Shown here: piece by piece, positions 24,612 to 45,195 of the stretch
Numbering within the stretch: the first letter of the stretch is position 1
How the letters are laid out: each line of letters starts with the position of its first letter
Program-made: the position numbers and the translations under genes
Source: Thiomicrorhabdus sp. zzn3
GTDB lineage: Bacteria; Pseudomonadota; Gammaproteobacteria; Thiomicrospirales; Thiomicrospiraceae
DNA length: 64,000 nt
Assembly: GCF_029767755.1 (NCBI RefSeq)
Contig: NZ_JARUQS010000001.1
Span: 1,448,501-1,512,500 of the forward strand
Direction of reading: 5' to 3'
The notes under the pieces: generated by a model
What the model saw: the letters and a program-made list of their open reading frames with translations, nothing else
Database searches by the model: none
Told to the model about the DNA's origin: nothing

Positions 24612-24713
24612 AATGGCTAATTTTACAGATAGGCTAATGACAATTAGGCGTTAATTTTTACATAAAAATCGGATAAAATCCGCACCGATTATCTATAAAT
24701 TTTAAAACACTTT

Positions 24714-24805
24714 TTGCCTAGGGGTGGCGTTACAGCCTGAGATCTTCGCTTAAAGAAGGAACCCTAAGAACCTGATCCAGTTAATACTGGCGTAGGGACA
24801 GGCCG
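24714..24805 (+). promoter_or_regulatory. TPP riboswitch (THI element)
   Basis: The conserved aptamer words are present in order: GGGGTG near the 5' side, GCCTGAGA, ACCCT, GAACCTGATC, then TTAATACTGGCGTAGGGA close to the 3' side. It binds thiamine pyrophosphate and normally represses thiamine synthesis or uptake genes. It lies about 100 bases ahead of the TonB receptor ATG. Confidence 0.95.
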
Positions 24806-24880
24806 CAGCATACGACATTCAAAAGAACCTTTTGAATCAACAGGTTCCATTCGTTCGATTCACTGATCTGCTCTTCCTGT

Positions 24881-24900
24881 CCTTTTAGATAACTAAAAGG
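24881..24900 (+). promoter_or_regulatory. Shine-Dalgarno sequestering hairpin of the TPP riboswitch
   Basis: CCTTTTAG-ATAA-CTAAAAGG is a perfect 8-bp stem. Its 3' arm contains the AAAGG ribosome site, 8 bases before the ATG at 24909. There is no T-tract. This suggests control of translation rather than transcription. Confidence 0.75.
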
Positions 24901-24908
24901 AATTTCCA

Positions 24909-27011
24909 ATGAAACGCAAACCACTTGTTTTTGCTCTAGCCGCACTTGGCTGCACATCAAGTTATGCCGAGCAACTCGACACCATTACCGTTAACGCCGA
25001 CTTTCGTCCGCATGCACTGGAAGAAACCGCCTCCAGCGTCAGCGTCATCAGCTCCGAAGAGATGCAAAAGCGCTCGGCGCAACACTTGGAAAACGTCCTT
25101 AATTTAGCCCCTAACGTTAACTCGGCAAGCGGAGCTTCTCGGAACAAGTACGTTCAAATTCGTGGAATCGGTGAACGCGGTCAATTTTCAACCCCGATCA
25201 ACCCATCCGTTGGCCTTTCTATCGATGGCATTGATTACAGCCGCAGTGGCGCGGCCGGCACCCTGTTTGACACAAAACAGGTAGAGATCCTTCGCGGCCC
25301 ACAGGGCACGCGTTTTGGCGCCAACGCACTTGCAGGCATGATTTTACTGGAAAGCAATGAGCCCACCAATCATACCGAAGCGCACATTGAACAAAGCATT
25401 GCATCTCGCAACACCCGTTCCACCGGAATTGCTGTAGGCGGACCTTTAATCAAAGATAAATTACTAGGCCGCGTTGCCATTCACAAGCACGTCTCGGACG
25501 GCTATATGGAAAACACCTATCTGGATCGTGAAGACACTCAGAACCAGGATGAGTTAACCGGCCGCGCCCATCTGAAATGGCTGGCCAGCGATGACTTAAC
25601 GTTGGATCTGAAAGCGCTGCATATCAATATGGATAACGGCTACGACGCATTCAGTTTTGACAATGATTTCACCACCACAACCGACCAACCGGGAAAAGAC
25701 ACTTTAAAATCAGATGCCCTGGCATTTAAAGCGACCTGGGACATTAACCCGTCGGTAACCATGGAAACCACGCTGACCCAATCCGATTCCGAACTGGAAT
25801 ACAGCTATGATGATGACTGGACCTATGACGGCCAGTATGCCGGCGGCTACAGCGCGTTCGATCAATACCTTAGAGATCGCAAGAACCGTTCCATTGATAT
25901 GCGTTTCCTCTCCGCCGACCAAGGTCGCATTTTCAACAATACCACCGACTGGGTGGCGGGTTTCTATCAGCTTAAACAAGATGAAGACCTGCATCGCACC
26001 TACCCTTATGTGGATTCCCCGAGCGGCAAAGAGTCCAGCAGCTACCAAACGACCAACACGGCGTTGTATGGTCAGCTGGACCACCACCTCAACGACAAAA
26101 CCACACTGACCGTCGGCCTTCGTGCCGAACAGTTTGAAGCGGATTACCGCAATTCCTATGGCTTCAGCCATGACACCGACGAATTGCTGTATGGTGGCAA
26201 AATCGGCCTGCAACACCAAATCAATAAAGAGCACCTTGGCTTTGTCACCCTGTCTCGCGGCTATAAAGCCGGCGGCGTGAATGACGACGCCTCACTGCCG
26301 GAAGACAAAATCGCGTTTGACACCGAAACCCTCTGGAATCTGGAAACCGGATTAAACTCATCCATGCTCGACAATCGCTTAAAAACCCGCTTAACCGTGT
26401 TTTACATGCAGCGTAACGACCAGCAGGTTAACAGCTCAACCCAAAAAGATGGCTCGCCAGACTTCACCATCTATTTGGACAATGCCGCTCAAGGCGAACA
26501 TTATGGCTTAGAAACAGAGATCGATTGGAGCATCAATCGTGAATGGCGCCTTCTGGCTTCGCTTGGGTTGCTTAACGCCACTTTCACCGATTACACCTAC
26601 GTGGATCCAAACGACACGTCTAACACCATCAGCCTGGATGGCCGGGAACAGGCGCATGCGCCTCGCTATCAATTCTCATTGGGCGGAGAGTACTACTTCG
26701 CACCAGGCTGGATTGCCAGCGCCAACATTGAAGGTAAGGACGCGTTCTACTTCTCCAACAGTCACAATGCTCGCTCTGATGCTTATCACCTGATTAATGC
26801 CAGCCTGGAATACATGACCGGTGACTGGACCTTTACCTTGTGGGCACGCAATCTCGCCGATACCGAATACGATGTACGCGGCTACCACTTTGGGATTGAC
26901 CCAAGCCTGGAGTATGATTCCTCTAATGGCGACTGGGGCTACGATCCGGCCACCTACACTCAAAAAGGCGAACCACGTACCGTTGGCCTAACCGTCTCCT
27001 GGGACTACTGA
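24909..27011 (+). CDS. TonB-dependent receptor, probable thiamine uptake
   Basis: 700 residues. A signal peptide (LVFALAALGCTSSYA) is followed by a plug domain with VEILRGPQGTRFGANALAG and a 22-strand barrel ending in an aromatic residue (VGLTVSWDY). The receptor should move its substrate across the outer membrane using TonB energy. The TPP riboswitch in its leader, and the thiamine-type genes after it, make thiamine or a thiamine precursor the likely substrate; this is inferred from regulation, not from the barrel sequence. No clear TonB box was picked out beyond the DTITV segment near the mature N-terminus. Confidence 0.9.
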   Translation: MKRKPLVFALAALGCTSSYAEQLDTITVNADFRPHALEETASSVSVISSEEMQKRSAQHLENVLNLAPNVNSASGASRNKYVQIRGIGERGQFSTPINPSVGLSIDGIDYSRSGAAGTLFDTKQVEILRGPQGTRFGANALAGMILLESNEPTNHTEAHIEQSIASRNTRSTGIAVGGPLIKDKLLGRVAIHKHVSDGYMENTYLDREDTQNQDELTGRAHLKWLASDDLTLDLKALHINMDNGYDAFSFDNDFTTTTDQPGKDTLKSDALAFKATWDINPSVTMETTLTQSDSELEYSYDDDWTYDGQYAGGYSAFDQYLRDRKNRSIDMRFLSADQGRIFNNTTDWVAGFYQLKQDEDLHRTYPYVDSPSGKESSSYQTTNTALYGQLDHHLNDKTTLTVGLRAEQFEADYRNSYGFSHDTDELLYGGKIGLQHQINKEHLGFVTLSRGYKAGGVNDDASLPEDKIAFDTETLWNLETGLNSSMLDNRLKTRLTVFYMQRNDQQVNSSTQKDGSPDFTIYLDNAAQGEHYGLETEIDWSINREWRLLASLGLLNATFTDYTYVDPNDTSNTISLDGREQAHAPRYQFSLGGEYYFAPGWIASANIEGKDAFYFSNSHNARSDAYHLINASLEYMTGDWTFTLWARNLADTEYDVRGYHFGIDPSLEYDSSNGDWGYDPATYTQKGEPRTVGLTVSWDY

Positions 27012-27024
27012 TCCGGAAAACCCG

Positions 27025-27054
27025 CAGGGCTTATAACCTTTAAACTAAGCCCTG
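27025..27054 (+). terminator. Intercistronic stem-loop after the TonB receptor
   Basis: CAGGGCTTA pairs exactly with TAAGCCCTG across a 12-base loop. No T-tract follows, so it is more likely an mRNA stability or processing element than a full terminator. Confidence 0.45.
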
Positions 27055-27097
27055 TTATCGAGCTCAACAAATCCAAAACGATCATGAGGATTGATTT

Positions 27098-27367
27098 ATG
27101 AGAGTATCCATCGACATCAGCATGTATCCTCTTCAAGAAGAGTACTGCCAACCGATCCTGGACTTCATTGACCGCATCGAACAAAACCCGCACCTGAAGG
27201 TGGAGCGTAACAGCATGAGCACACAGGTATTCGGCGAATACCGCACCGTCATGGCGGAATTGAATGAAGAAATACTGATCGCACTTGAAAAACTGCCGCA
27301 AACGGTATTTGTACTCAAACTCGTCGGAACCGACCGTTCCAGAGCGGTAATTAACGCTTGTGAATGA
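27098..27367 (+). CDS. Thiamine-binding-type small protein (YkoF/MTH1187-like)
   Basis: 89 residues. The fold pattern DISMYPLQEEYCQPILDFI followed by LKVERNSMSTQVFGEY is typical of the small ferredoxin-like YkoF/COG0011-type family, members of which bind thiamine or hydroxymethylpyrimidine in the cytosol. Located in the riboswitch-controlled unit, it may hand thiamine from the permease to kinases, or act as a binding or sensor protein. It overlaps the next gene by 8 bases. The family call is from pattern memory; the ligand is inferred from context. Confidence 0.75.
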   Translation: MRVSIDISMYPLQEEYCQPILDFIDRIEQNPHLKVERNSMSTQVFGEYRTVMAELNEEILIALEKLPQTVFVLKLVGTDRSRAVINACE

Positions 27368-27977
27368 GCCTTTCCTGCAAACCGTAAGCACACTGCTTTC
27401 CGCCCTCTCGGGCTGGGAGTGGATTGCGACGACACTGGGCATTTTATATGTCATTCTCGCCGCAAAAGAGTCTATCTGGTGCTGGCCAACGGCCTTTGTC
27501 AGCACGTTGATCTACACCCTGTTATTTTGGGAAGGTCAGCTGCCGATGCAGGCACTATTGAATGCCTACTATCTGTTCATGGCCGTGTACGGCTTTATGC
27601 TCTGGCGCAAGCATGGAGATCAAAAAGAGGACCTGCGCATTTCCACCAGGCCTGTTCGGTTTCATATTATCTATATCGTCAGCGGAGCAGTGCTGACCGT
27701 CGCCACCGGTTTTTATATCGATAACGTCTTGCATTCACGCCTGCCGTTTCTCGATGCCTTTGTCACCGTTTTTTCCGTTATGAACACGGTCTTAATGGCG
27801 AGAAAGGTTTTAGAAAACTGGCTTTACTGGCTCATCATCGACAGTGCCGCCATCGCACTCTACTGGCAAACCGGCTTCCACATCACCATTATCATGTTCG
27901 GCGTATACCTGATCTTGGCCATTGTCGGTTACTATAACTGGAAAAAGCTTTTCCAAACCCGAACTCAGAGCAGCTAA
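27360..27977 (+). CDS. pnuT: PnuC-family permease, probable thiamine transporter PnuT
   Basis: 205 residues with about seven membrane helices. It has the PnuC hallmarks WCWPTAFVSTLIYTLLFWEG, LLNAYYLFMAVYGFMLW and, near the C-terminus, the helix with ALYWQTGF. PnuC-type proteins are facilitators for vitamins trapped by phosphorylation inside the cell: nicotinamide riboside (PnuC), riboflavin (PnuX) or thiamine (PnuT). The TPP riboswitch upstream points to thiamine. GTG start at 27360, overlapping the previous stop. A CAGGCCTGTTCGGTTT element (27648) lies inside the coding region. Confidence 0.85.
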   Translation: MNEPFLQTVSTLLSALSGWEWIATTLGILYVILAAKESIWCWPTAFVSTLIYTLLFWEGQLPMQALLNAYYLFMAVYGFMLWRKHGDQKEDLRISTRPVRFHIIYIVSGAVLTVATGFYIDNVLHSRLPFLDAFVTVFSVMNTVLMARKVLENWLYWLIIDSAAIALYWQTGFHITIIMFGVYLILAIVGYYNWKKLFQTRTQSS

Positions 27978-27978
27978 T

Positions 27979-28902
27979 TTAATCAAAACGGGTTGGCGCG
28001 TTCATCCACGCCTCTAAAGAGGATTCGCCCAACACATTCATTAAAAACAACAGCAATCGATAGACTGTTCTGTCCTCGCCAATCACCGGAACAGAAGCAA
28101 GTATCTCATACTCCTGCTTAAAGAGTTGCGCCTGCTGTTCATCCAGCAGATATTCAAGCATCACCCACTCTAACTCGCGCGCGCCCCACACCATGGCATC
28201 CACATCCACCAAAACCAGCTGGTGAGCATGGCGTAAAAACTGATCCCAGCGTAAATCCGGCATAATCGGCACAAACTCAGCAGGCCGGTTCGACCAGGCC
28301 TGTTCAAAACTATGCAACGGCTTGGCGTACGCTTGAACATCCACTTTTAAGCTTTCCGCCAATTCCTGAATGGTGGCCACCACCTTCCTGCCCCAATCAT
28401 CAGCCTCAACAGTCGGCTCAAACAAGGGACCAAAGTGCCGGGAACGTTGTTGATGCAACAAGCCTAAGTGCTGCGCCAACATGGAAACTTCTACAAGGCC
28501 TACCACTTCTGCGACAGCCCCCCCTTCCACTTTTTCAGCTAATAACCAACCACAAGATTCGGTTTGGGCGCCTGCCGCCGACAATAGTCTTGGAACAGGC
28601 AATCCTCCCCACTGCTCAAGCAGACGATACACTTCGGCATAACGCCCCATCTGCAAGGCAAACTTCAATCCAAAGAGTTGTGACATCCCCATCCAAAAAG
28701 GGGATTGATCTAACACCGACTGCGAGCACAGCTTTAAGACGGCCTCAACCTCTTCTCCCTGATCTGGCAATACACACTTTGCCTGCCACAGCTGATTGGT
28801 ACTGTCCTCGTACCGCACCGGCATCCGCTCGACCTCGCTTAATTGAGGAAAACGAGCCCTCTGAATCCCGGAAAGGCATTGATAAATGAACTCCATACTC
28901 AT
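27979..28902 (-). CDS. Aminoglycoside-phosphotransferase-fold protein of unknown substrate
   Basis: 307 residues from the ATG at 28902 (the 29007 start adds an unlikely hydrophobic lead). The C-terminal half resembles the APH/choline-kinase fold. MPDLRWDQFL aligns with the catalytic loop HGDLHPGNVL, keeping the Asp but not the His or Asn (Met, Gln), and LVLVDVDAMVWGARELEW aligns with the metal-binding Asp loop. The stop is one base from the end of pnuT on the other strand. The neighbourhood suggests thiamine kinase-like salvage, but the degenerate loop and the opposite strand make that a guess. CAGGCCTG at 28295. Confidence 0.6.
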   Translation of the reverse strand: MSMEFIYQCLSGIQRARFPQLSEVERMPVRYEDSTNQLWQAKCVLPDQGEEVEAVLKLCSQSVLDQSPFWMGMSQLFGLKFALQMGRYAEVYRLLEQWGGLPVPRLLSAAGAQTESCGWLLAEKVEGGAVAEVVGLVEVSMLAQHLGLLHQQRSRHFGPLFEPTVEADDWGRKVVATIQELAESLKVDVQAYAKPLHSFEQAWSNRPAEFVPIMPDLRWDQFLRHAHQLVLVDVDAMVWGARELEWVMLEYLLDEQQAQLFKQEYEILASVPVIGEDRTVYRLLLFLMNVLGESSLEAWMNAPTRFD

Positions 28903-29132
28903 AAACAAAAGCATAGCATCAAATGCCACACACCGTACGCCATCTATTGCTTTATGTGTTCCCTGCCTCCAACAAACCAGGAGCAGTTTAAAGGCGACAG
29001 AATACAAATAGAGTACCTATTAAACGGTTTTTTTAGATATAATGATCGGCTGAACTTATTTTTATTGGCTTTTCCAAGCATTAACATAACAGAGCGCATG
29101 CTTGGGATTGGAATAACTGAAAGGAACCCGTT

Positions 29133-30197: not shown

Positions 30198-31655
30198 ATG
30201 GATTTGATTAGCCTTTATCCAACCTGGTATGAACCCATGGTCGGCTCGGGATGGGTGGTTGCCCTGATCGCAACTTTCCATGTACTGGCCTCACATACCT
30301 CAGTAGGGGCGGCCCTGCTTTTTGCCTATCTCTCGCATAAGGCTTATCGCGAGGATCGCGAAGACTTGCTGGACTTCATTAAGAAGTACGGTCTTTTCTT
30401 GCTGGTATTCACCTACGTCGCGGGCTCCATTACCGGCCCGGGAATTTGGTATTCCACCACCGTCGCCAGCCCTAACGGAATTGGTGCACTGATTCACTCC
30501 TTTGTGTGGAAATGGGCTACTGAATGGGTCTTCTTCGTCATCGAAGTGGTCGGTGTTTACATGATCGTCTATCTCGTCGGTCGCGTTGACAAGCAAACCC
30601 ACATGAAGATTTCGGTTATTTTCGGAATCGCCTCTTTGGCCACAATGGTCATCATCGTTGGGATCCTGTCATTTATGATGGTTCCAGGTAAAGAGATTTG
30701 GTTTGAAGAAGGCGGATACCTAAACGGCTTCTACGGCACCAACACCTTTATCCAGTTGGGTATGCGTATGGCGTTTATGTTCACGATCACCGCCGTGGTG
30801 GGCGGCATTGTGGTTGCCGGCATCAAAGATCCTGAATTCAAAAAGGAGATGGCGCGTAAACTCGGCTGGTTAGGGATTATCTCTACACTTATCGGAGCGG
30901 CTCTGCTTCAGTGGTACTTAACGTCGGTTCCAGATCAGGCGTTGCTGGTTATGGAAAACCGTTTGCCAGAATACTTCGTACCAAGCATCGTAGCAGTACT
31001 GGCAGGGACTTTGGCCTACTTCATCATCACCATGCTGCGTCCACAGACACTGGTGCAAGGGTTTGCCGGATTCATGTCGGTCGCCATCCTGGTCGCCGGT
31101 CTGTGGCCTGAAGAGACCGCACGTGAATCGATGCGTAAACCTTGGGTAGCCGGTCAATATGTCTACTCAAATCAGGTCATCGGCCGCGATGTTCCTGGTA
31201 TGGACATCAAATCCCAACTGCCGATTATTGAAAAAGTCGGGATTTTGAAAGCGCACCCATTCACCCCGGAGCATCTGCGCGAAGTAAATGACGGTAATAT
31301 GATCCAGGCAGGTGAATTCATCGCCATGACTTACTGCTCTAACTGCCACTCACCAAGCGAGACCGGTATCCGTCCTCTACACCGCTATTTCCCTGACGGT
31401 GTCACGCAAGAACGCATGGAAAAGTATGTTAAAGGTGTGCTGACCACTGGCAACATCGCCTATATGCCCAAAATGCCGATGCTGGATTCGGAAGTCAAAG
31501 CGCTTTCCGCCTACTTGGTGATGAATAACAACAGTGGTCCGGAAGCAACCAAAGTGGCCATCAAACAAGAAGTGGAAGCACGCAACCGCGCTCTAGCCGA
31601 AAAGCAAGCGCAGGATAAAGTCGCTACGCTTGATCTAGCACAGGAGGTGAAATAA
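30198..31655 (+). CDS. bd-superfamily-like membrane oxidase subunit with C-terminal haem c
   Basis: 485 residues. The N-terminal membrane part resembles CydA of cytochrome bd: ATFHVLASHTSVG aligns with the first CydA helix (His28 at the position of a haem ligand), and the TEWVFFVIEVVGVY helix carries two Glu residues about where CydA has Glu99/Glu107. About nine membrane segments follow in all. The usual quinol-binding loop is not evident. The C-terminal domain has a single haem c site CSNCH (Cys380, Cys383, His384) with Met candidates in YMPKMPML. bd-superfamily families lacking the quinol site have been described; this looks like one that takes electrons from cytochrome c. First gene of the fcc operon. 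Confidence 0.75.
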   Translation: MDLISLYPTWYEPMVGSGWVVALIATFHVLASHTSVGAALLFAYLSHKAYREDREDLLDFIKKYGLFLLVFTYVAGSITGPGIWYSTTVASPNGIGALIHSFVWKWATEWVFFVIEVVGVYMIVYLVGRVDKQTHMKISVIFGIASLATMVIIVGILSFMMVPGKEIWFEEGGYLNGFYGTNTFIQLGMRMAFMFTITAVVGGIVVAGIKDPEFKKEMARKLGWLGIISTLIGAALLQWYLTSVPDQALLVMENRLPEYFVPSIVAVLAGTLAYFIITMLRPQTLVQGFAGFMSVAILVAGLWPEETARESMRKPWVAGQYVYSNQVIGRDVPGMDIKSQLPIIEKVGILKAHPFTPEHLREVNDGNMIQAGEFIAMTYCSNCHSPSETGIRPLHRYFPDGVTQERMEKYVKGVLTTGNIAYMPKMPMLDSEVKALSAYLVMNNNSGPEATKVAIKQEVEARNRALAEKQAQDKVATLDLAQEVK

Positions 31656-32902
31656 TGGACGCTTCTCAAGTTTCACAAGTCACAGAAATGATGTATGCCT
31701 TGCGCAACCCGGCAGGCGTCCCAACCTATCCGATTATCTTTATCGGACTGGGGGTCCTGACCTTCGCGCTGCACATTCTCTTTGTTCAGCTTATGTTGGG
31801 CACCTCGGCCATCACCCTCTACGGCGCATTTAACAGCAATCCATACTGGCGCCGTCTAGGAGCTGCCATGCTGGAAATCGCCAAGGTTTCGGTGTCGGTA
31901 GCGATTGTCGTCGGGGTTGCACCACTGCTGTTTGTACAGGTGGTCTATGACCCACACTGGTATACGTCTAACGTCCTATCTGCCAACTGGGTTATCGGCT
32001 TTATCATTATTTTGATTTTGGCTTACTGGGCGATGTATTACTTTTACTTCGTCAACGGCAAAAACCAAGATAAAACCGTACAGCCAACATCCCGCTGGGC
32101 GATGATTTTGAGCTTGGTTTTGATGCTGGTGGTTGGTTTCATCATGCACAGCCTAACCTCTCAGATCCTGCACCCCGAACTGTGGAAAGAGTGGTATATC
32201 CAAAACGGTGTTCTGGATTATTCCGGTTCCGCGTTGCATGCTTATAACCCTTGGCGTTTTGCCTTCTTTATCAGCTTGGCCGTACCGGTTGCCGGCGGCA
32301 TGTTAGTGACTTACCGTCGCTTTAAGATGGTGCGTGAAGATGCCGATCACGACTACCTGAACTGGGCCGCTGAAGTCGGTAAAAAATGGATTAAAGCCGG
32401 TTCAGTGATTTCTACTGTTCTTTATGTTGCCTGGATGATGACCCTGCCTGAAACGGCTGGTGACTTTGCAACCTCGTTCTGGGGAATTGCCGGTGGTATC
32501 GCTGTGATCTTCTATGCGGTATGGGCTCAATTGCGCCTGAAAGGTGAAGCCAACTTCTGCAGCTACATGGCACTGCCAATGGCGCTGGTTGTTGGATTGG
32601 TGGTTGCGATTTCTCGCGAAATGCTGCGCTACGGCATCCTGAACGACTTTTTCCACTATGACTTCATGGACTACAAAGTCGTCATGGACTGGTACTCAAC
32701 AGGCCTGTTCTTCCTAACCTTTGCCATCGTGGGTGGTTCAGTACTGGCTTACTTCCTCACCATTGCCTGGAAAACCGGGCAAACAGTCGGAGTGTACACA
32801 CCAAGTGCTGCAGTCAACAAAATGGGAACCATCGCAATCTGGATCATGATCATTTGGATGATTCAATTCTTTGTCGTCGGTTTCTACATCTGGGCGAAGT
32901 AA
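31655..32902 (+). CDS. Second bd-like membrane subunit
   Basis: 415 residues, about ten membrane helices, no CxxCH. The first helix (LTFALHILFVQLMLGTSA) is again CydA-like rather than CydB-like, so the complex may be a dimer of two CydA-related proteins. Starts at an ATG overlapping the previous stop by one base (TAATG), with AGGAGG just upstream, so the two subunits are probably made in equal amounts. It likely forms the membrane core with the preceding protein. CAGGCCTG at 32700. Confidence 0.7.
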   Translation: MDASQVSQVTEMMYALRNPAGVPTYPIIFIGLGVLTFALHILFVQLMLGTSAITLYGAFNSNPYWRRLGAAMLEIAKVSVSVAIVVGVAPLLFVQVVYDPHWYTSNVLSANWVIGFIIILILAYWAMYYFYFVNGKNQDKTVQPTSRWAMILSLVLMLVVGFIMHSLTSQILHPELWKEWYIQNGVLDYSGSALHAYNPWRFAFFISLAVPVAGGMLVTYRRFKMVREDADHDYLNWAAEVGKKWIKAGSVISTVLYVAWMMTLPETAGDFATSFWGIAGGIAVIFYAVWAQLRLKGEANFCSYMALPMALVVGLVVAISREMLRYGILNDFFHYDFMDYKVVMDWYSTGLFFLTFAIVGGSVLAYFLTIAWKTGQTVGVYTPSAAVNKMGTIAIWIMIIWMIQFFVVGFYIWAK

Positions 32903-32912
32903 GGAGGCTTTT

Positions 32913-33305
32913 ATGAAACAGTCAATGAAACTAAACACGCTATTGGCCGCCTTCTCTTTGATGGCCGCCACCTCCGCCCAGGCGGAACCGCAAATGGCAA
33001 CGGGTGGTGCCATGGCATGGCAATGCGCCCCTTGTCACGGCACCAATGGGCAAGAATTTGTGGAGGCGATGCCACCTCTGGCTGGCATGCCTGCCAAACA
33101 ATTTATCGACGCCATGATCGCTTACCGTGAAGGCACTCGTGCCGCCATCATTATGGATCGTGTTGCACGTGGCTTTACCGACGATGAAATTAAAGCCATG
33201 GCGGCTTGGTTTGAAAAACAACCGGTTAAACAGTGGGAAAACACCAGCTTAACCGAATCGCTTGAAGCTCAAGCGGCCGCAGAAGCGACAGGAGGTCAAG
33301 AATGA
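32913..33305 (+). CDS. Periplasmic monohaem cytochrome c
   Basis: 130 residues from the ATG at 32913, which has an AGGAGG ribosome site; the longer frame from 32871 overlaps the previous gene without support. A cleavable signal peptide (LLAAFSLMAATSAQA) is followed by one haem site CAPCH and a class I-type fold with Met candidates in PPLAGMPAKQF. It is probably an electron carrier between FccB and the membrane complex. The stop overlaps the fccB start (ATGA). Confidence 0.88.
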   Translation: MKQSMKLNTLLAAFSLMAATSAQAEPQMATGGAMAWQCAPCHGTNGQEFVEAMPPLAGMPAKQFIDAMIAYREGTRAAIIMDRVARGFTDDEIKAMAAWFEKQPVKQWENTSLTESLEAQAAAEATGGQE

Positions 33306-34633
33306 GCCAATTAGAAAACAAAGTCTTCGACAGCAAAGTCACACGTCGTGACCTGATCAAAGTATTCGGCGCTTCTGCAGTCGCAGCCACCGGTCTGTTC
33401 GGTGCCAGCAAAAACGCCTTTGCCAAGTCAGCACCGCATGTGGTGGTACTGGGTGGTGGTGTTGGTGGCTCTACTTTCGCCAAATACCTGCGCTTTGCAG
33501 ACCCGGATGTCAAGATCACCATTATTGAACAGTTCCCGGAATACATTACCTGTCTGCGTAGTAATGACGTGATCGTGGGTTACCATACCTTGGATGAACT
33601 GACCTTTAACCTGGACACCATCAAGTCAAAATACAACGTCAATGTGGTTATCGATAAGGTAATCGGTGCCGATTTTGACAAGAGAACCGTGCAAACGGCT
33701 AAAGGCCACACCCTGTCTTACGACAAACTGGTGGTTTCTCCGGGAATTGACTTCAAATTTGAAGACTATGAAGGCCACAGCAAAGAACTGGCTGAAACCA
33801 AAATTTTCCACGGTTATAAAGCCGGGCCACAAACCTTGGCGCTAAGACAACAGCTGCTATCGGTACCGAAAGGCGGAACGGCGATTATTGCTCCTCCGCA
33901 AAACCCGTTCCGTTGTCCTCCAGGGCCTTATGAACGTGCCTCGTTCTTTGCGGAATACTTCCAGAAGCACAACCCAACCGCCAAAGTGATCGTACTGGAT
34001 CCAAAAGACCGCTTCACCAAAGATGGTCCTTTCAAAAAGGCGTGGGAACGTCTGTACGGTTATAAAACCGACAACTCGTTGATTGAATGGGTATCCGGTT
34101 CCGAAGGGGGTCGCGTGCTTTCCGTTGATGGTGACAACCTATCGGTTGAAACCATGGCGGGGACCTTTAAGGCCGACATGATCAATATCATTCCAAACCA
34201 ACGTGCCGGTAAACTGGCGCAAAAACTGGGATTGACGGATGCATCAGGCTGGTGCCCAATCAAACGTGAATCAATGGAATCTCAAATCCAGCCCGGCGTC
34301 TATGTGCTCGGCGACAGCTCGATTGCTGATGCTATGCCAAAATCAGGCTACTCCGCCAACTCCCAAGCGAAAGTATGCGCACGCGCGGTGGCAGACACCC
34401 TAAGGGGAAATGAATTAGGTAAAGCCATTTACTCTAACGTGTGCTACAGCTTGGCAGGTGAAAACTACGGTGTTTCCATCGCTGCAATCTATGAAGTGCG
34501 TGACGGCTTGATCCAGCCAAAAGGGAAATCAGCCGGTGTCTCGCCTATTACTGACAAGCCTGCGCAGCCTATTCTGGAAGCGGTTTACCAGAAGAACTGG
34601 CAACGTGAGTTTGTAAAAGACGTGTTCTCTTAA
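33302..34633 (+). CDS. fccB: Flavocytochrome c sulfide dehydrogenase, flavoprotein subunit
   Basis: 443 residues. A twin-arginine signal (TRRDLIKVFG) exports the folded flavoprotein. The dinucleotide fold is VVVLGGGVGGSTFAKYL. Cys84 in YITCLRSN matches the cysteine that binds FAD covalently in FccB, and Cys205 (FRCPPGPYE) and Cys381 (NVCYSLAG) fit the redox disulfide pair that attacks sulfide. The C-terminal FCSD domain is present (EAVYQKNWQREFV). It oxidises sulfide in the periplasm and passes electrons to c haems. Its neighbours are two cytochromes c and a bd-like complex, an unusually complete chain in one operon. Confidence 0.93.
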   Translation: MSQLENKVFDSKVTRRDLIKVFGASAVAATGLFGASKNAFAKSAPHVVVLGGGVGGSTFAKYLRFADPDVKITIIEQFPEYITCLRSNDVIVGYHTLDELTFNLDTIKSKYNVNVVIDKVIGADFDKRTVQTAKGHTLSYDKLVVSPGIDFKFEDYEGHSKELAETKIFHGYKAGPQTLALRQQLLSVPKGGTAIIAPPQNPFRCPPGPYERASFFAEYFQKHNPTAKVIVLDPKDRFTKDGPFKKAWERLYGYKTDNSLIEWVSGSEGGRVLSVDGDNLSVETMAGTFKADMINIIPNQRAGKLAQKLGLTDASGWCPIKRESMESQIQPGVYVLGDSSIADAMPKSGYSANSQAKVCARAVADTLRGNELGKAIYSNVCYSLAGENYGVSIAAIYEVRDGLIQPKGKSAGVSPITDKPAQPILEAVYQKNWQREFVKDVFS

Positions 34634-34655
34634 TTAAGTGGTGGAGGAAAAGACA

Positions 34656-35369
34656 ATGTTGAAAAAAACTTTATTAGCTGCCGCTTTAATTGGGTTTACC
34701 GGCACAGCCATGGCCAGCGGGCATGGCGAAAAACCTGATGCACACCCTTGGAGCAACTTCTCGCTGGATCAAAAAATCCAGTCCATGCCTGAAGGCGATG
34801 CGACGCGTGGTCAGGACATCCATGCACAAATGATGTGTAATGCCTGTCACGGCGAGAAAGGGGAATCCCCTTCCCGTAACTACGCGTCCATCAACGGACA
34901 GCCTAGCGAATACACCATCAAAATGATGCTGGACTACCGTGACGGCCGTCGCTGGGAAGATTACAAACAAGCCAACATCATGGTTAAAATCGCACAAGCG
35001 TTAAACGACCAGCAGATTGCCGACTTGGCGGCGTTCTATGCTCAAAGCACCCCCCAACCTTGGGAATATGCCGGTAGCCTGGAAGCCGACGTTCACAGTA
35101 AAGTGGACCGTTTGGTGCGTAAAGGCGATGCTTCTCGCATGATCGTCCCTTGCGCTTCGTGCCACGGTGCACATGGTGAAGGCAATGCGATTACGCCAGC
35201 CTTGGCCGGACAAATTCCAGAATATTTTGTTCGCACCATGCAAGCGTATAAACATGGCCATCGCAATAACGACGTCAACGAAGGGATGTCCCAGTTCACT
35301 CACGATTTAACCGACGAAGAAATTCAAGCCTTGGCTGAATACTACGCGTCGCTTAACGAAGCCAAATAA
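34656..35369 (+). CDS. fccA: Dihaem cytochrome c (FccA/c4-like subunit)
   Basis: 237 residues from the ATG at 34656, 8 bases after GGAGG; the frame from 34638 starts inside the ribosome site. Signal peptide AAALIGFTGTAMA. Two haem sites, CNACH and CASCH, each lead a c4-type domain with the repeated pattern ...YTIKMMLDYRDGRR... and ...YFVRTMQAYKHGHR.... This is the electron-accepting subunit expected for FccB, though c4 proteins look alike and the pairing rests on adjacency (22-base gap). Confidence 0.88.
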   Translation: MLKKTLLAAALIGFTGTAMASGHGEKPDAHPWSNFSLDQKIQSMPEGDATRGQDIHAQMMCNACHGEKGESPSRNYASINGQPSEYTIKMMLDYRDGRRWEDYKQANIMVKIAQALNDQQIADLAAFYAQSTPQPWEYAGSLEADVHSKVDRLVRKGDASRMIVPCASCHGAHGEGNAITPALAGQIPEYFVRTMQAYKHGHRNNDVNEGMSQFTHDLTDEEIQALAEYYASLNEAK

Positions 35370-35380
35370 GGAGCTGAATC

Positions 35381-35479
35381 ATGAATGGAATCAAAGCCAT
35401 CATTTGGGGGCTGATTTTAACTTTCGGCTCCATCGCACTGATGTGGTGGTTAAGCACCATGACGGTCGTAAGCCTGTAA
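35381..35479 (+). CDS. 32-residue single-helix membrane protein at the end of the fcc operon
   Basis: ATG at 35381 with a ribosome site (AAGGAG, 6-7 base spacer), 11 bases after fccA and ahead of the operon terminator. The product is one membrane helix (IKAIIWGLILTFGSIALMWW then LSTM). Size and position are reminiscent of CydX-type small subunits of bd oxidases, but the sequence is not recognisably CydX. It may stabilise the membrane complex of this operon. Confidence 0.7.
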   Translation: MNGIKAIIWGLILTFGSIALMWWLSTMTVVSL

Positions 35480-35497
35480 ACAGCGCTTGCAAATCAG

Positions 35498-35527
35498 AAA
35501 AGCCGCATTTATCGCGGCTTTTTTTAT
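35498..35527 (+). terminator. Terminator of the sulfide/cytochrome operon
   Basis: AGCCGC and GCGGCT pair around ATTTATC and are followed by a run of T. It lies 20 bases after the small membrane-protein gene. Confidence 0.85.
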
Positions 35528-35542
35528 CCCTGGCACAAAGAA

Positions 35543-35576
35543 GTTTAAAACTTAACAGGCCTGTTAAGTTTTAAAC
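35543..35576. repeat. Perfect 34-bp palindrome with central CAGGCCTG
   Basis: GTTTAAAACTTAACAGG (35543-35559) is followed by its exact reverse complement. It lies after a complete terminator and 30 bases before the next start codon, so its role is unlikely to be termination of the upstream operon. Confidence 0.8.
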
Positions 35577-35605: not shown

Positions 35606-35941
35606 ATGAAAATCGCACTCACCAGCCCCAACGGCACCACCCTCTCCGGCCACGCCGGCAAGTGTCCTGGCTATTTAGTGTTTGTAATAGAAGACGGCAA
35701 AATCCTGCCGCAAGAGCATGTCAAACTCACTCGTCAACAGACCCTGCGCAATCTTGAAGGAAGACTGTCCGACCACCCTGATCACCCCTTGTACGGTATG
35801 AATGTTTTTATTACCCAAGGGCTGGGCGAAGGTCTGATGAGAAAACTGCACAAGGATAAGATCACCATTTATCAGACAGAAGAGCCCGACCCGATCAATG
35901 CGCTTAAACAATTCCACTTGATCAATGAATCACTTGACTGA
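35606..35941 (+). CDS. NifX/NafY-type iron-molybdenum cofactor domain protein
   Basis: 111 residues consisting of one dinitrogenase-cofactor-biosynthesis domain: IALTSPNGTTLSGHAGKCPGY is described here as an N-terminal beta strand, a GHAGK turn and a Cys at residue 20, followed by LVFVIEDGKILP and an H/D-rich stretch. In nif clusters such domains carry cofactor precursors; stand-alone versions are widespread with unknown roles. No nif gene is nearby. Ribosome site TAGGAGAACCC. It follows the sulfide operon but has its own leader containing a 34-bp palindrome. Confidence 0.78.
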   Translation: MKIALTSPNGTTLSGHAGKCPGYLVFVIEDGKILPQEHVKLTRQQTLRNLEGRLSDHPDHPLYGMNVFITQGLGEGLMRKLHKDKITIYQTEEPDPINALKQFHLINESLD

Positions 35942-45130: not shown

Positions 45131-45195
45131 GCAGCCTTATCTTCGTGCGACCAAATGCCGATTTGAACAGGCCTGTTCAGTTTGCTTGGATTTCA

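Follow-up and report, generated by a model that had tools for sequence, protein, structure and literature searches.

The cytochrome bd superfamily has been split into three groups, qOR, OR-C and OR-N, with the quinol site in CydA marking the qOR enzymes (available passages of PMC13189123); OR-N members are proposed to receive electrons from cytochrome c (PMC10839748, in the part available), and CydAA' enzymes are pairs of CydA-like subunits (PMC12342949, likewise in part). On the sulfide side, a Thioalkalivibrio study that set the fccAB contexts of several sulfur oxidisers side by side found no conservation in the genes around them (available passages of PMC6382920), and a Hydrogenovibrio genome paper has flavocytochrome c donating to cytochrome c, its accessible passages naming no membrane genes of the type described below (PMC5733100). 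Here we analyse a six-gene block in a window of 64,000 nucleotides (G000:C1:1448501-1512500) from the 2.37 Mb genome of Thiomicrorhabdus sp. zzn3. The block encodes two membrane proteins, P1 and P2, together with FccB and c-type cytochromes, and probably constitutes a sulfide:oxygen respiratory unit, P1-P2 being a predicted cytochrome c-fed bd-type oxygen reductase with its own sulfide dehydrogenase. The six coupled genes listed in an earlier prediction made from the sequence alone (the original prediction), among them a monohaem c, a dihaem c4-like and a one-helix protein, were all found at their coordinates on one strand:

30198..31655, + strand: P1, CydA-like subunit with a C-terminal cytochrome c domain (8 helices in the model; CSNCH at 31335-31349; M423 the likely sixth ligand)
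31655..32902, + strand: P2, likewise a CydA-like subunit (modelled with 10 helices; has H40 and R321-E322-x-x-R325, lacks E99/E107 equivalents)
32913..33305, + strand: monohaem cytochrome c (CAPCH), FccA-like (top PDB match 5n1t_B, 3.3e-13)
33302..34633, + strand: FccB (PF21706 and PF09242 above cut-off; 1fcd_A, 1.4e-116)
34656..35369, + strand: dihaem cytochrome c4-like protein (CNACH, CASCH; PDB cytochrome c4, 3.1e-20)
35381..35479, + strand: 32-residue one-helix protein (matched in 18/59 related loci, always behind the dihaem c gene)
35496..35524, + strand: intrinsic terminator hairpin with T run at the 3' end of the block (-14.8 kcal/mol, z -5.94, by folding)

All junctions between these genes, which span 30198-35479, are of 22 bases or less: P1 and P2 overlap by 1 base, the monohaem c gene and FccB by 4, and the remaining gaps measure 10, 22 and 11 bases. 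Because of this tight spacing on the + strand and the closing hairpin with its T run, the six genes are likely co-transcribed. A promoter scan returned 4 sites against a shuffle mean of 6.7, i.e. no excess over chance, and the terminator scan run with it missed the hairpin that folding shows.

The likeness of P1 to CydA, on which the original prediction leaned, was borne out by fold, by bridging homologs and by individual residues. In a comparison of predicted models, CydA was top-ranked for both P1 and P2 (the matches come from Foldseek; VIA-align lists re-examine Foldseek's own matches and cannot add folds missed there). When solved structures were searched by sequence, neither P1 and P2 singly nor profiles of their close relatives found CydA, and P1 scored 17.8 bits against Pfam PF01654, below the curated cut-off of 26.2. 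Relatives were collected in two overlapping samples: 59 P1 loci taken from GTDB species genomes by exact peptide patterns, which favours close relatives (the species-collection sample; its nearest relatives of P1, 92-93% identical, come from Thiomicrorhabdus and Thiotrichales records), and 62 genomes forming the family sample, in which one P1 copy (G818) just attains the PF01654 cut-off with 26.2 bits. For 39 of the 58 members of alignment A1, PF01654 is listed at E ≤1 (best 2.3e-6). With close relatives alone, A1 matched CydA weakly in profile-profile comparison, at E 0.0049, a value that improved to 2.2e-6 for P1 when five distant rows were added. A search with a Thermus P1 relative retrieves proteins from groups that include Chloroflexota and Acidobacteriota, and many of these proteins have a precomputed PF01654 match. 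All six of these bridge proteins that we scanned, chosen because they were listed with PF01654, passed the Pfam CydA cut-off, and for five of the six a cytochrome c domain is listed as well (E <0.001). Pairwise hhalign joined the P1 family to the bridge at E 5e-123 and the bridge to CydA at E 1e-7.

We then located the functional residues of CydA in a MAFFT alignment of 44 rows (10 P1-family, 26 bridge and 8 CydA sequences). The E. coli CydA numbering (H19, E99, E107, H186, M393, E445, R448) was set via motifs:

30279..30281, + strand: P1 H28, equivalent of the haem ligand H19 (H in 44/44 rows)
30522..30545, + strand: P1 E109 to E116, equivalents of E99 and E107 (E109 in 44/44 rows; position 116 is E in 34 rows and D in the other 10)
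31113..31142, + strand: P1 E306, R309, E310, R313, K314 and P315 (E310, R313 and P315 in 44/44 rows)

P1 E310, R313 and P315 align with CydA E445, R448 and the P of GRQPW. The loss of haem ligands, which would have spoken against the original prediction, was looked for, and the residues of the P1 di-haem site proved to be retained; another outcome of that kind, no relation to CydA, did not materialise either. At the positions of the b558 ligands H186 and M393, P1 has M189 and S263 in the same alignment, neither of them conserved, and the stretch between the two positions measures 74 residues in P1 vs 143-211 in the eight CydA rows, so that the Q-loop stretch is gone, in agreement with the predicted lack of a quinol site. 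At the other end of the protein, the predicted haem c motif is present: CSNCH occupies residues 380-384, and both Cys, the His and M423 are invariant in 63/63 aligned relatives. By the residue alignment and this invariant motif, P1 keeps the O2-side residues and carries a haem c site in place of the quinol side. Alignments and models support placing P1 in the cytochrome bd superfamily, with the residues of a di-haem active site and without a quinol/b558 site.

For P2, the proposed CydA likeness holds beyond chance by fold, profile-profile score and residues. The protein matches neither the CydA nor the CydB model of Pfam, and its close relatives alone (A2) matched CydA at 0.0092, still 0.0042 for P2 after the addition of five distant rows. 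It keeps equivalents of H19, E445 (E or H) and R448; those of E99 and E107 are absent. P2 would be a partner subunit of the CydA/A' kind, with its own predicted haem site at H40/E322. In one relative (L082), a dihaem c is fused onto P2.

Canonical CydAB and P1 share the fold and the di-haem residues H19, E99, E107, E445 and R448; P1 differs in having no b558 ligands and no Q-loop stretch and in its fused haem c, and P2 is CydA-like without a Pfam CydA or CydB match. The bd families that lack the quinol site likewise have a CydA-like subunit with O2-site residues and no quinol/b558 site; what sets our locus apart from them is that a sulfide dehydrogenase and its cytochromes share the gene block. 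We would provisionally file P1-P2 near OR-C, in which haem c sits on the catalytic subunit.

By homology, FccB is a flavocytochrome c sulfide dehydrogenase with an FccA-like cytochrome partner in the block. Its alignment to flavocytochrome c sulfide dehydrogenase 1fcd_A takes in the FAD-Cys region and both catalytic-Cys regions, and its leader reads as twin-arginine (VTRRDLIK), in line with the Tat export and FAD-binding Cys of the original prediction. The small cytochrome is closest to 5n1t_B, a monohaem partner chain. As in the FccAB structures (1fcd, 3vrd, 5n1t), FccB comes with a small cytochrome partner, but here this partner is monohaem and FccA-like, and it is linked with two membrane proteins and with a dihaem c4-like protein, none of which the soluble Chromatium-type flavocytochrome c is known to require. 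A membrane-bound flavocytochrome c was reportedly purified from Thiobacillus sp. W5 by Visser et al. in 1997. This strain, a Halothiobacillus, would have had a sulfide dehydrogenase on the membrane, and Halothiobacillus-named loci (L028, L036, L046-L048) carry the block; that the W5 enzyme is identical to the P1-P2/FccAB system is a guess. The genome of the window holds a second FccB (G000:C1:763597-764871; L186 5580-6881), 43% identical and unlinked to P1-P2, with a small cytochrome c match and a gene read as SoxB-like upstream.

Genomes were surveyed for fccB next to the membrane genes, as the original prediction had proposed. FccB lies beside P1-P2 in 53/59 species-collection loci, from gamma-, beta- and alphaproteobacteria; in the remaining six (L013, L033, L040, L043, L051, L053) the contig stops in P1, P2, the next gene or just past it. 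Among the family genomes we found 49 P1 copies in 42 of the 62, and 43 of these copies are followed, 1590-1791 bp downstream, by an fccB in the same orientation; of the other six, one is cut by a contig end and five are a second paralog without FccB. FccB occurs in 53/62 family genomes and P1 never without FccB in a genome (co-occurrence 42/11/0/9; Fisher 8e-6, kinship and incomplete genomes uncorrected). Across 369 genomes from the class, a profile search retrieved P1 in 10, with FccB adjacent in seven (not in G134, G136 and G249), and samples at the phylum level, with P2 in 3/398 genomes and P1 in 2/397, were too sparse for a census. Chance adjacency is ruled out by the locus counts, the family counts and the P1 tree. 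Weighing against an exclusive tie, and with it against our reading of the block, 70 of the 113 FccB copies in family genomes sit elsewhere.

The history of the association was followed on a quickly built tree of 71 P1 rows, to which 56 of the 59 loci contributed (L051, L059 and L061 had no row of at least 350 residues). The FccB label changes once on this tree if truncated loci are omitted, and five times if these count as lacking FccB. The fork placing the FccB-less locus L083 outside has only 86% support, and several outer branches are long. L083 consists of P1-P2 and a dihaem c alone, and in five family genomes (L180-L184) there is a second P1-P2 paralog, accompanied by a small cytochrome c. 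Because L083 and these paralogs have P1-P2 without FccB and with other c cytochromes, the P1-P2 core, on this evidence, predates the FccB link, and FccB is a secondary addition. The proposal that the operon supplies the donor is partly supported, through the conserved genetic tie to FccB. The L181 paralog adjoins a RegB/RegA-type kinase and regulator (top NCBIfam matches ActS/PrrB/RegB, 6e-34, and ActR/PrrA/RegA, 2e-46), and such neighbours are likewise found on Methylosinus and Agrobacterium plasmids, three settings in all, among relatives without FccB; all six best matches behind these calls are under curated cut-offs. Redox-regulator neighbours of this sort would suit an oxidase role. Other P1-P2 pairs keep different company: L079 (3286-10031) has a distant pair with a haem c on each, beside genes read as soluble methane monooxygenase-like hydroxylase subunits, and two Thermus thermophilus plasmids (L141, L142) carry P1-P2 with genes for a SaoD/DsrE-family protein and for the substrate-binding protein of a metal ABC transporter close by, and no FccB annotated in the vicinity.

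Within the family, two types of FccB can be told apart (by our own labelling), 74-88% or 41-51% identical to that of the window. The type changes 7 times on an 18-row P1 tree (L007, L013 and L061 left out), where shuffles gave a mean of 6.2, so there is no clustering, and the FccA-FccB-c4 cassette has evidently been exchanged repeatedly under P1-P2. As an example, L007 (3999-13453) contains tandem operons whose P1-P2 are 98.8% identical in DNA over 2.8 kb and whose FccAB differ, an arrangement that could reflect duplication with cassette exchange, or gene conversion. The gene for the 32-residue protein stays with P1-P2 through such swaps (in L006, the 32-residue protein is 93% and FccB 45% identical), hinting that its product is possibly a CydX-like accessory membrane subunit.

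In the sulfide:oxygen unit that we propose, the chain would start in the periplasm with FccB, which would oxidise sulfide and pass the electrons to its monohaem FccA-like partner, from there to the dihaem c4-like protein and on to the haem c domain of P1. They would then reach a pair of b595/d-like haems bound through H28 and E310; there, O2 would be reduced with protons drawn from the cytoplasm, separating charge without pumping, like canonical bd. Such a short chain would skip quinones and the main oxidase, the latter likely sulfide-sensitive, and would serve respiration in the presence of sulfide. In E. coli, 1.1 uM sulfide is enough to inhibit bo3 by half, and the two bd enzymes remain resistant at 58 uM (Forte et al. 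2016, PMC4815019, available passages), and a bd-type outlet would accordingly work where a haem-copper oxidase may fail. By analogy, P1-P2 would share the sulfide resistance of E. coli bd, and the single haem-copper oxidase gene of this genome (by PF00115; with the next gene it reads as cbb3-type CcoN-CcoO) may encode an enzyme as sensitive as bo3. No canonical CydA above the cut-off was found in the genome; 6/62 family genomes pass it, one of them through P1. More tentatively, the components may assemble into a self-contained, sulfide-resistant H2S:O2 supercomplex in which flavocytochrome c and four c haems join a paired CydA-like, cytochrome c-fed bd reductase, working without quinone, bc1 or haem-copper oxidase and spread across sulfur-oxidising proteobacteria. 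Such a supercomplex would also be an obvious candidate for the W5 membrane-bound enzyme.

The alternative that survives best, which we nonetheless consider unlikely, is that adjacency serves expression only: FccAB would reduce the general cytochrome c pool, and P1-P2 would be a separate cytochrome c oxidase drawing on it. The free, unclustered swapping of the FccAB-c4 cassette fits this picture, as does the upstream position of FccA-FccB in seven Halothiobacillus-type loci of the 59 (L024, L028, L036, L045-L048); yet a free c pool would need no such pairing, and the pairing is kept in most family copies and fits one gain on the P1 tree, truncated loci omitted. Also improbable is a reverse route, in which P1-P2 would move sulfide electrons from c haems into the quinone pool, driven by the proton motive force, for reverse electron flow and CO2 fixation. 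Apart from CydA, the models of P1 and P2 each resemble chains of alternative complex III and of the polysulfide reductase PsrC, which are quinone-linked, and these bacteria, as sulfur lithotrophs, need electrons of low potential. P1, however, has neither the Q-loop stretch nor the b558 ligands and retains the CydA residues E99, E107, E445 and R448, the NrfD-type family is absent among the matches listed in the Pfam tables for the alignments, and sulfide:quinone oxidoreductase (SQR) plus bc1 is a simpler route for quinone reduction from sulfide. Least probable of all is that P1-P2 reduces another small molecule (NO, or O2 for detoxification only), with FccAB feeding protection in sulfidic, microoxic water and not energy conservation: P1 retains E99, E107 and E445, residues that canonical bd is linked to using for O2 reduction and for the delivery of protons, and many block-bearing records are named as known sulfur oxidisers. 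What favours this protective role is that a canonical bd enzyme gives resistance to NO, sulfide and cyanide (PMC11837568, in the part available) and that relatives occur in unrelated settings, beside methane monooxygenase-like genes (our own reading) and on Thermus plasmids.

Elsewhere in the window, a thiamine pyrophosphate (TPP) riboswitch (24710-24816, 69.1 bits) stands before genes for a TonB receptor, a small protein and a PnuC-like transporter (24909-29007; names by reading), which are followed by a gene on the opposite strand; 24710-29007 looks like a thiamine-uptake locus. A perfect 34-base palindrome (35543-35576) lies between the terminator of the block and the next gene (35606-35941, read as a NifX-like small protein). 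Its 16-base core was present in 1/186 fetched loci, L144, which is the window's own place, and its 18-base core has a copy with 3 mismatches at 45163-45180.

The original prediction called a unit of this kind new or little described. bd families without a quinol site are already published; the assignment of sulfide as donor was not found in our literature searches, where no title or abstract among those listed described this operon and which did not include the defining bd-superfamily paper (Murali, Gennis and Hemp 2021). For those families, the literature passages available to us contained no tested physiological donor, and a conserved gene block with sulfide as the candidate donor would make the question directly testable. 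If our reading is true, FccAB would gain a dedicated outlet, and the continued respiration in sulfide of bacteria with a haem-copper oxidase would be accounted for. Genes now called 'hypothetical protein' or 'cytochrome c' in many sulfur oxidisers would become those of a proposed terminal oxidase, which matters for how genomes of the sulfur cycle are read.

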